39,776 bases of DNA from a bacterium (GTDB lineage Bacteria > Verrucomicrobiota > Verrucomicrobiia > Limisphaerales > UBA11358). Of this stretch, positions 8,285 through 31,677 are shown piece by piece. The notes beneath the pieces were generated by a model that worked only from the letters and a program-made list of their open reading frames with translations, was not told where the DNA came from and searched no databases. Made by a program: the position numbers and the translations under genes. The stretch spans positions 1 to 39,776 of the forward strand of contig JAJXYT010000051.1 of assembly GCA_021780375.1 (NCBI GenBank). The letters are read 5' to 3'. Every line of letters begins with the position of its first letter. Position 1 is the stretch's first letter.

Positions 8285-8427
8285 GCAGGAGCACGGCTGT
8301 GGTCGCAGGCCCGGCCGCAGAGTGCTCCGCCGGGTGCTGCGGCTGGTGCTTTGCACGCCGCCGCGCTCCGCCGAAGTGTGGCAATGAAAATTTCTTTTGT
8401 GACTTTTGCGCCTTTTTGCGGCTAAAA
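8285..8427 (+). repeat. Repeat-rich gap before pheS
   Basis: The rplT-pheS gap holds a GC-rich stretch with interleaved inverted repeats (GGAGCAC near 8287 against GTGCTCC near 8322, plus several CCGCCG/GCGGC runs). It is followed at 8394-8427 by a degenerate CTTTTGTGACTTTTGCGCC-type segment. The latter closely resembles the right arm of the inverted-repeat element at 30918-30944 and, as there, ends just before a start codon. No gene is apparent. It is probably dispersed repeat DNA that may also contain the pheS promoter. Confidence 0.5.
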
Positions 8428-8434
8428 TCCAGGT

Positions 8435-9538
8435 ATGTCGTTGCTGGACGAAATCGAACCCTTGAAGCAGGCGGCCTTGGCCGAATTAAAATCAGCCCCC
8501 GACCTCGCCGCGCTTGAACAGGTCAAGGGCGCGTGGGTCGGGCCGCACGGCAGGTTCACCGCCCTCATGAAGCAGCTCGGTGCGCTGTCGAAGGAGGAAA
8601 AACCCGCCGCCGGCAAGGCCATCAATGCCGCCAAGGTCGAACTGGAAGCCGCCTTGGCGGCTTGTCGCGAAGAACTGGAATTGAAAGCCGCGTTGCCCCG
8701 GGAGCCAACCGATTTCAGCGCGCCCGGCCGCCGCCGCGCCCTTGGCAAGCTCCATCCGCTCACGCAAGTAACCGAGGATATCGTCCGCAGCTTCCGCAAG
8801 ATTGGTTTCGTCGTCGCCGACGGCCCGGAAATCGAGGACGAGTATCACTGCTTCGACGCGCTCAACACGCCGGCCGATCATCCAGCCAGAGATACCCAGG
8901 ACACATTCTATGTCGCCAGCAGCGCGCCGAATACATCTCCCGCGCCCGCGGGAGCGGGAGAGGGTGGCGCGGCGAAGGCTTCTCCCTCTCCCGGGGGAGA
9001 GGGCCGGGATGAGGGCGGTTGTAAATCACTCTTGCTTCGCACCCATACCTCTTCCGTCCAAATCCGCGTGATGGAGAAACAACCGCCGCCCATCCGCATC
9101 ATCGTGCCGGGCCGCGTTTATCGCCGGGACAACGCCGATGCCACCCACAATCCGACGTTCCAGCAGATCGAAGGGCTTTACGTGGACAAAAACGTCACCG
9201 TCGGCGACCTCAAAGGAACGGTGGAATTTGTCTTCAAGGAACTGCTCGGCGAGGAGACGAAAATCCGGTTCCGGCCGCACTATTTCAGCTACACCGAGCC
9301 GAGCTTCGAGATTGATTTCAGCAACGCGCTCGTGAAGAAGCTGGGCAAAGACTGGCTGGAAATCGCCGGGTGCGGCATGGTGCATCCGCAGGTCTTCGAA
9401 AACGTCGGCTACGACCCGGAAATCTGGACCGGCTGGGCGTTCGGCTTTGGCATCGAGCGCATCGCTATGATCCGGTACGGCATCAATGACATCCGATTGT
9501 TTTACGAAAATGACGTGCGGTTTTTGAAACAATTTTAG
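8435..9538 (+). CDS. pheS: Phenylalanyl-tRNA synthetase alpha subunit
   Basis: The alpha subunit carries the class II catalytic core of the (alpha-beta)2 enzyme that charges tRNA-Phe. The N-terminal ~90 residues form the coiled-coil tRNA-binding arm. The catalytic domain starts at GRRRALGKLHPLTQV (about residue 98). Motif 2 is LLLRTHTSSVQIR, then PGRVYRRDNADATHNPTFQQIEGL; motif 3 is GFGIERIAMIRYGINDIR near the end. The protein is 367 residues, about 30 longer than usual, because residues 161-198 between DTFYV and LLLRTHTS are an in-frame palindromic repeat insertion (about 8917-9028). The last 24 codons are AT3-rich compared with the rest of the gene and are duplicated at 10392-10463. Confidence 0.95.
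   Translation: MSLLDEIEPLKQAALAELKSAPDLAALEQVKGAWVGPHGRFTALMKQLGALSKEEKPAAGKAINAAKVELEAALAACREELELKAALPREPTDFSAPGRRRALGKLHPLTQVTEDIVRSFRKIGFVVADGPEIEDEYHCFDALNTPADHPARDTQDTFYVASSAPNTSPAPAGAGEGGAAKASPSPGGEGRDEGGCKSLLLRTHTSSVQIRVMEKQPPPIRIIVPGRVYRRDNADATHNPTFQQIEGLYVDKNVTVGDLKGTVEFVFKELLGEETKIRFRPHYFSYTEPSFEIDFSNALVKKLGKDWLEIAGCGMVHPQVFENVGYDPEIWTGWAFGFGIERIAMIRYGINDIRLFYENDVRFLKQF
8936..9023. repeat. In-frame palindromic repeat insertion in pheS
   Basis: The segment contains two hairpins: TCCCGC/GCGGGA near 8937-8952, and the perfect 9-bp stem CCCTCTCCC/GGGAGAGGG at 8984-9003. It ends in a CCGGGATGAGGG tail of the kind widely seen in intergenic repeats of proteobacteria and planctomycetes. 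It encodes an A/G/P/S/E-rich loop inserted between two conserved strands of the catalytic domain and keeps the frame. Confidence 0.8.
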
Positions 9539-30026: not shown

Positions 30027-30809
30027 TCACCCCAATTTCCGCATCAAGCCTTTTGCGCGCCAAACCCAGACGCGGTCGCGCTTGCGCTGGAAGGCCGGCG
30101 CGTGAATGTCGTCGCTCAACACGTCCTTGAGTTCAGCGCGGGCAAGGTCGGGCTGGTTTTTGGCGAGGTAAAGTTCGGCGAGCTGGACCTTGGCGCGGGG
30201 ATAGGAATGGTTTTGCGTGATGTGCTGCCAGTAAAGCAGCGCATTATCGGTTTCACCCAGGGCGGTCAGCGTTTCAGCCAGCGCCATCATGGTGTACCCG
30301 TAATCATGATCGGGCTTTTCTTTCATGACGCCTTCGAGCAGCGGACGCGCTTCAGCGGGGCGCTTCAGCCGGAGCAGGCATTGGCCAAGATGGGCGCGGG
30401 CGTCTATGTCGTTGGGGTCGCGTTCGAGCGCGGCCCGGTAGCATTTTTCCGCCTCGGCCAGTTTGCCGCGTTGGAAATACACGTCCCCCAGCTGGAAATG
30501 GTGATAGGCGTTGTCCAGGTGATGGATTTGCGCCTGAAGCTCTTTGATGCGTTTGCGGCTTTGTGTGCCGGGCAGTTCGAAACCGCGTGTGCTCGACGTC
30601 GCCGAGGCGCGATAGACGAGGAAGAAATAAAGCACCGCGTTAAGCACCGGGAAAATAAAGATGAACACGGCCCAGAACCATTCCTGCCGCCGGATCGCGT
30701 CAATGAACATCCAGATTTGAAAGACCGCGAATGCCAGCCAAATCGGACTGCTGATCAGATAATTCCACTGAGTAAAGTCAGTCAGCAAGGAAGCGAACAT
30801 GGCGTCCAT
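30027..30809 (-). CDS. Membrane-anchored TPR protein
   Basis: This 260-residue protein has two N-terminal membrane helices resembling the PLD-nuclease N-terminal family (PIWLAFAVFQIWMFIDAIRRQEWFWAVFIFIFPVLNAVLYFFLVYR, residues about 20-68). A cytoplasmic tetratricopeptide domain follows (HFQLGDVYFQRGKLAEAEKCYRAALERDPN, and two or three more repeats to about 230). The start at 30809 (MDAMFASLL) is chosen because the 30 in-frame codons upstream are translated from an inverted-repeat element (giving LRLCAFALN). It probably acts as a protein-interaction scaffold; partners are unknown. Its promoter must lie within the repeat element shared with the divergent nth-like gene. Confidence 0.8.
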   Translation of the reverse strand: MDAMFASLLTDFTQWNYLISSPIWLAFAVFQIWMFIDAIRRQEWFWAVFIFIFPVLNAVLYFFLVYRASATSSTRGFELPGTQSRKRIKELQAQIHHLDNAYHHFQLGDVYFQRGKLAEAEKCYRAALERDPNDIDARAHLGQCLLRLKRPAEARPLLEGVMKEKPDHDYGYTMMALAETLTALGETDNALLYWQHITQNHSYPRAKVQLAELYLAKNQPDLARAELKDVLSDDIHAPAFQRKRDRVWVWRAKGLMRKLG

Positions 30810-30811
30810 AT

Positions 30812-30944
30812 TTAACGCAAAGGCGCAAAGGCGCAAAGAAACAAAACGAGGAAGGAGGATGAAAAACGGCAAAACGCCGTGTTTGGATTGATCTTCCATT
30901 CTCGGTTTCTGCTTTTACTTTGCGACTTCGCGCCTTTGCGTTAA
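30812..30944. repeat. 133-bp inverted-repeat element filling a divergent intergenic region
   Basis: The left arm (30812-30838, beginning TTAACGCAAAGGCGC) and right arm (30918-30944) pair at 25 of 27 positions around a 79-nt core. The arms contain 8-nt GCGCAAAG-type units. The element occupies the whole gap between the divergent TPR and nth-like genes, starting 3 nt from one start codon and ending 10 nt from the other. It contains an internal AACGGC-AAAAC-GCCGT hairpin. A degenerate relative of one arm lies just before pheS. Confidence 0.85.
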
Positions 30945-30954
30945 TGCTTCAAAG

Positions 30955-31677
30955 ATGGTTGCGCCGAACGTCAAAAGAGATTTGCGCCGCGCCTACGAAC
31001 TCATGCGCGCGCGGTTTGGGCACCGGCATTGGTGGCCGGGCGAAACCGCATTTGAAGTCTGCCTCGGTGCCATCCTGACGCAAAACACTGCGTGGACGAA
31101 TGTCGAGCGCGCGATTGCCAATCTGAAAGCCGCGCGGGTGCTGGAAGCCAAAAAACTGTTCGCGCTGCCGGAATCGAAACTGGCCGAACTCATCCATTCC
31201 GCCGGTTATTTCAACGTAAAAGCGCGGCGCTTGCGGTCGTTCCTGCGCGTGCTGGTGGAGGATTTTGACGGTGATTTGCGGCGGCTGTTTGCCGGCGGGA
31301 CGGCGGCCGTCCGCGCGCGGTTGCTGGCCATCAACGGCATCGGGCCGGAAACCGCCGACAGCATGTTGCTTTACGCCGGCGGGCATTCCAGTTTCGTGAT
31401 TGACGCCTACACGAAGCGGATTTTTCAGAGACATCATTGGAGTCGGAAGGCAGAGGCCAGAGGCTGGCAGACAGAGGTCGGAAATTCAATGGCGAGTGAT
31501 TACGGCAAATTGAAGACGCTTTGCGAGTCGCGGTTGAATCAAAAAACCGGCGCGGCGCGGCTGGATTACTGGCAGGATTATCATGCGCAACTGGTGATGG
31601 TAGGGAAACACTTCTGCCGGGCGCGCGCGCCGCTGTGCGAACAGTGCCCGCTCAAACCGTTGCTTCCGAAAAATTGA
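30955..31677 (+). CDS. Endonuclease III-related DNA glycosylase (COG2231/MagIII-like)
   Basis: The protein has the HhH-GPD fold: FEVCLGAILTQNTAWTNVERAI at residues 33-54, the hairpin INGIGPETADSMLLY (about 126-140) and the catalytic Asp150 in FVIDAYTKR. The lyase Lys of endonuclease III (in GRKTA) is replaced by Glu132 in GPETA, as in MagIII-type enzymes. It is therefore probably a monofunctional base glycosylase, for example for alkylated bases. Of the four iron-sulphur Cys ligands, C221, C228 and C231 are present, but the fourth position is Leu, so the cluster is doubtful. A heptamer array encodes an extra loop at residues 163-176. Confidence 0.82.
   Translation: MVAPNVKRDLRRAYELMRARFGHRHWWPGETAFEVCLGAILTQNTAWTNVERAIANLKAARVLEAKKLFALPESKLAELIHSAGYFNVKARRLRSFLRVLVEDFDGDLRRLFAGGTAAVRARLLAINGIGPETADSMLLYAGGHSSFVIDAYTKRIFQRHHWSRKAEARGWQTEVGNSMASDYGKLKTLCESRLNQKTGAARLDYWQDYHAQLVMVGKHFCRARAPLCEQCPLKPLLPKN
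31441..31482 (+). repeat. Heptamer array in the nth-like gene
   Basis: Six 7-nt units (AGTCGGA, AGGCAGA, GGCCAGA, GGCTGGC, AGACAGA, GGTCGGA) total 42 nt, exactly 14 codons, encoding SRKAEARGWQTEVG. The insertion lies between the catalytic Asp helix and the next conserved helix. Unit divergence suggests an older insertion than those in pheT or ymdB. Confidence 0.75.

Follow-up and report, generated by a model that had tools for sequence, protein, structure and literature searches.

Among described systems of small repeats, three come closest to the element discussed here. In REPIN/RAYT systems (Bertels and Rainey 2011, PMC3116915), gene-less hairpin doublets with short arms spread extragenically, a single small enzyme gene carries the same flanking repeats, and each of several repeat types is tied to its own enzyme lineage; the enzyme is an HUH tyrosine transposase and the repeat is a REP palindrome tagged with GTAG. 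TIRtrons, or TIRYT (Di Nocera and co-workers 2013, PMC3733652), have a single enzyme gene inside terminal inverted repeats that are long and in some cases belong to repeat families; their enzymes are RAYT-like tyrosine transposases. MITEs are short, non-coding, intergenic elements with terminal inverted repeats that share their ends with a transposase-bearing element. The 133-nt element described below resembles all of these, but in relatives its arm type flanks a gene for a PD-(D/E)XK nuclease of the GxxExxY family (TIGR04256 / PF13366 PDDEXK_3) rather than a tyrosine transposase.

The element occupies positions 30812-30944 of the window (the whole stretch of 39,776 nt that was analyzed, which is contig C13 of a 4.0 Mb host assembly that is 85% complete). 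Its 30-nt arms are complementary at 27/30 positions and are separated by 73 nt; the left arm (30812-30841, plus strand) reads TTAACGCAAAGGCGCAAAGGCGCAAAGAAA and the inverted right arm (30915-30944) reads TTAACGCAAAGGCGCGAAGTCGCAAAG on the minus strand. An initial annotation of this DNA had described a 133-bp inverted repeat with 25 of 27 arm matches, and exactly this count was reproduced for the outer 27 nt of the arms. The element is predicted to form a single hairpin (DNA, -40.3 kcal/mol, z -7.3, 0/200 shuffles as stable). Rather than a single motif, each arm comprises three slightly varied copies of the 8-bp unit CGCAAAGN, and these tandem units, with TTAACGCAAAGGCGCAAAGGCGCAAAG, are a family signature (hereafter, the CGCAAAG arm type). 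The motif GCAAAGGCGCAAAG singled out in the initial annotation is found in exact form at two places in the window, each within the left arm.

There is no gene inside the element, and no Rfam family matched anywhere in the window at gathering scores, so the element corresponds to no known structured RNA family. The body (30842-30914, 73 nt) occurs once in the host genome and contains an inner imperfect palindrome (z -3.2) centered on ACGGC-AAAAC-GCCGT at 30866-30880, which is possibly a decayed nested element. This palindrome is not a family trait: the median fold z of the body was ~0 across 24 elements, with 3/24 below -2, and two of these three bodies (L062 and L252) look like nested elements themselves. 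A conserved folded unit in the body was therefore rejected. The description of the element as MITE-like holds in that it is short and non-coding, has inverted ends and is absent from an orthologous junction (L083) in a same-genus relative; the body, however, is not conserved between copies. As for the parent expected of a MITE, the arm type flanks GxxExxY nuclease genes in relatives, but GxxExxY is not a known transposase and no gene armed in this way was found in the host assembly; neither a target duplication nor a parent transposase was found for the 133-nt element.

The element lies between two divergent genes, a TPR protein gene on the minus strand (30027-30809) and, on the plus strand, a gene for an HhH-GPD base-excision DNA glycosylase / endonuclease III-like protein (30955-31677). 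With start codons at 30809 and 30955 the gap is 145 nt, of which, as previously stated, the element fills all but 12 nt. However, orthologues in two relatives (G022 and G024) conserve an ATG corresponding to 30800, which is more likely to be the TPR start; the gap would then be 154 nt, with 21 nt left outside the element. The TPR frame also remains open across the left arm up to an ATG at 30899 (minus strand, 30810-30899), and an automatic gene caller could give this protein a false, repeat-encoded N-terminus of the SLRLCAFALN type.

Since the element fills nearly the entire gap, transcription of both genes probably starts inside or beside it, and the initial annotation had proposed that it may act as a mobile promoter or regulatory unit. 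Several observations make this reading very improbable. The divergent arrangement is kept in G024 and G022 with ~75-80 nt of different sequence between the genes; G024 has no element at this locus and G022 has only decayed arm remnants. The G024 gap was too diverged for a target-site duplication to be called, and a near-identical empty site was not found. A sigma-70-like site was not detected in 30700-31050. In four relatives, with placement classed by a crude gene caller, the gaps occupied by the 47 classified CGCAAAG elements were tandem in 27 cases, convergent in 16 and divergent in 4; two more elements were inside called genes. Counted by gaps, those with and without an element numbered 14 and 7 for convergent, 26 and 63 for tandem, and 4 and 11 for divergent pairs. 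Divergent promoter regions are thus not preferred; it is the convergent gaps that are enriched (14/21 hold an element vs 30/104 other gaps, p 0.002). The genes adjoining a convergent gap have no promoter within it, and, as divergent gaps are not preferred, the placement of the present element before two gene starts is explained by the small size of intergenic gaps. Most likely, the 133-nt element inserted between two genes whose own promoters were already in place, and the insertion would simply have become the intergenic spacer.

GxxExxY genes are present in 0-8 copies per genome, and in relatives of the host some of them are flanked by CGCAAAG arms. We scored the best inverted repeat between the upstream and downstream flanks of 123 distinct loci from 49 same-genus genomes plus a few of the order (some loci are orthologous, and not all are independent), using the 95th percentile of mismatched flank pairs as the control. 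Almost every GxxExxY gene of the same-genus genomes was bracketed by inverted arms of this tandem-unit design: the median score was 50 vs 24 for mismatched flanks, and 99/123 loci exceeded the 95th percentile. The same method applied to GxxExxY loci from many phyla, a sample taken with a narrower alignment and thus leaning to GPGLLES-type proteins, gave a median of 37 vs 17, with 48/77 loci above the 95th percentile. The full cassette, a GxxExxY gene between inverted arms, is accordingly spread over phyla. In each case the arm repeats a 7-11-bp unit three or four times in tandem with slight variation, and the unit differs by lineage (CGCAAAGG, CACAGATGGA, CACGGATTT, CACAGAGG, GACAGGATTAA, GCGAATTAC and others), whereas the repeat of REPIN/RAYT systems is a tagged palindrome. 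In one genome (G012), most GxxExxY copies (e.g., L054 and L179) contain TAG in frame, once or twice per gene, but neither of the remaining stop codons, which reflects either decay or the reading of TAG in that organism.

The cassette gene codes for a protein of ~115 aa that is a clear member of the GxxExxY family, and 14/14 tested proteins matched PF13366 (PDDEXK_3). The PD-(D/E)XK residues D62 and K74 were invariant in 37 diverse GxxExxY proteins, and therefore most copies are probably still catalytic. A structure model (pLDDT 97) had its best fold match in Cas4 SSO0001 (Z 9.6 over 95 residues), followed by restriction-like folds and Hjc resolvases with Z near 6-8. In the literature searched, the GxxExxY family is named in passing as an annotation, and a description of flanking repeats or of mobility was not found. 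Searches for PDDEXK proteins with inverted repeats and for Verrucomicrobia repeats did not reveal the association either; searches with arm sequences returned four chance matches in mammalian papers and, for other arm types, nothing. The cassettes appear to form a large, undescribed family.

Arm type is linked to protein lineage. Arm similarity tracked GxxExxY protein identity (Mantel r 0.55, 0/999 permutations), and the link persisted where the outer flanks were unrelated, with a mean arm score of 14 at <30% protein identity and 48 at >80%. The two arms of one cassette were more alike than the arms of relatives of 60-75% identity in 58/64 cases, a count biased upward by the choice of arms for their mutual match. 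Among all cassette arms, the best match to the left arm of the window was that of L129 in G035 (31/35, E 6e-8), and the reversed window gave 5e-4 at best. The L129 GxxExxY gene is directly upstream of a tpiA-like gene (named from its translated start) and is preceded by a ~100-bp hairpin with L129's own arms. Proteins of the L129 type with 63-72% identity occur in Verrucomicrobiales (L282), Anaerolineae (L287), another Chloroflexi (L288) and Acidobacteria (L289), and all four loci keep TTAACGCAAAG-type arms at differing host loci. The linkage does not prove binding of arms by the protein, as it would also be expected from plain co-inheritance.

A second arm type is present in the window itself. 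Immediately upstream of pheS (8435-9538, plus strand) there is a solo arm, GCCGCAAAAAGGCGCAAAAGTCACAAAA, at ~8395-8422 on the minus strand, which the initial annotation had called degenerate. The arm is real, yet far from degenerate, agreeing at 27/28 positions (E 8e-8) with an arm of a GxxExxY cassette in G024 (L171), and it is probably a single-arm leftover of that type.

Gene-less hairpins with the same arms as the cassettes are numerous. As in REPINs, CGCAAAG elements consist of two inverted repeats forming a hairpin and are mostly extragenic. By pattern search only, the host genome has related arms at a handful of other sites, mostly in short intergenic gaps by a start or stop codon, whereas this arm is common in same-order relatives, one of which (G052) has 78 matches to TTAACNNAAAGNCGCAAAG vs 1 for the reversed pattern. 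These arms are mostly inverted pairs, 60-150 bp apart and with mostly unrelated bodies, and in one case (L062) a CGCAAAG element has an element with arms of a different type inserted inside it. In another genome (G026), one GxxExxY gene with CACGCAAAG arms is accompanied by many CACGCAAAG arms elsewhere, several of them paired. The host genome also has 48 matches to ACCACGGATNNACACGGATNNACACGGAT and 0 to the reversed pattern, and one of its GxxExxY cassettes (L172 / L192) is so armed.

Could these hairpins be ordinary MITEs or REPINs moved by a conventional transposase such as RAYT (Y1)? Inverted ends and hairpin folding are typical of such elements, and RAYT-like Y1 genes were present in 11/12 genomes searched. 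However, the Y1 genes of these genomes carry classic palindromes of their own (AATAGCCCAGCGATTTATCGCTGGG and similar; 17/24 above control). This result served both as a positive control for the flank method and as an argument against mobilization by RAYT. Among the Y1 genes of the 12 genomes, none was flanked by CGCAAAG-type arms, which do flank GxxExxY genes, and RAYT was rejected as the mobilizer. We therefore regard a conventional transposase as an unlikely explanation overall.

The arms and hairpins could also be mobile by other means, with GxxExxY as a mere passenger, e.g., a nuclease favored by such spacers. A CGCAAAG-armed GxxExxY gene was not found in the host assembly (85% complete), whose four GxxExxY copies are armed otherwise, nor in two arm-rich genomes, G052 and G028 (>40 arm matches). 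Hairpin copy number was also poorly linked to cassette presence: of two arm types, one showed a weak association (p 0.03) and the other none (p 0.39). In addition, genes for a four-helix-bundle protein (TIGR02436, the 23S rRNA intervening-sequence family; L222-L251, several genomes) have inverted arms, with 10/25 above control and tandem 7-8-bp units (AAAGCGG x4, AGTTGATAG, GTCGAGAG). They represent a second, unrelated one-gene cassette family; the arms could thus be exploited by more than one protein, and alike flanks around two unrelated small genes would suit a passenger. However, the four-helix arms obey a different grammar, GxxExxY arm types are tied to protein lineage, and within a cassette the arms are closer to one another than to those of related cassettes. 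On balance, a passenger role for GxxExxY seems improbable to us.

Turnover was apparent at one orthologous junction, flanked by a leuA/cimA-like gene and by valS (both named from translations), which was compared in 30 same-genus genomes (L192-L221). The junction is an insertion hot spot whose occupant, be it a GxxExxY cassette, a gene-less hairpin or a toxin-antitoxin-like insert, changes between genomes, and insertions differ in most of the 30 genomes. A GxxExxY cassette is present in the host and in six other genomes; further genomes have gene-less hairpins, which represent at least four arm types and include two of the CGCAAAG type (in G025 and G022); and a ~900-bp insert, identified by eye as toxin-antitoxin-like, was seen in four genomes. 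In G023 there is no insertion and the stop and start codons overlap. In three of the 30 genomes a leuA-like gene was not found upstream of valS. One insertion (L200) is flanked by ATGA on both sides vs the overlapping ATGA of an empty junction (L196), which hints at a target-site duplication; however, this ATGA is enforced by start and stop codons. The patterns of presence, absence and nesting are as would be expected of mobile DNA.

Together, these observations suggest that the 133-bp element is probably a non-autonomous hairpin of a mobile family whose full members are single-gene GxxExxY cassettes. The family relation is likely, and mobilization by the GxxExxY protein is plausible, judging from comparative sequence data. 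In the mechanism that we propose, the nuclease would bind the tandem units of its own arms and cut DNA, or the hairpin; repair of the break would copy the arm-bounded DNA into intergenic sites, and gene-less hairpins would thereby spread in trans. The best reading by analogy may be a REPIN-like system in which a PD-(D/E)XK nuclease takes the place of RAYT, and RAYTs of these same genomes use other repeats. In its broadest form the proposal is more tentative, a serious possibility rather than the probable case: GxxExxY cassettes might represent a phylum-wide minimal mobile element, whose sole enzyme, a Cas4/Hjc-like PD-(D/E)XK nuclease, recognizes fast-diversifying tandem-unit arms and spreads both itself and gene-less hairpins intergenically.

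These findings offer a candidate origin for very common, unexplained intergenic repeats of environmental bacteria, such as those with arms of the CGCAAAG, CACGGATGA or CACAGAG type. They also offer a candidate function for a large nuclease family that is recognized chiefly by its motif. Should the nuclease indeed move its arms, the system would resemble REPINs while relying on another enzyme fold, and such cassettes would have to be taken into account in gene annotation, promoter mapping and synteny work in these phyla.
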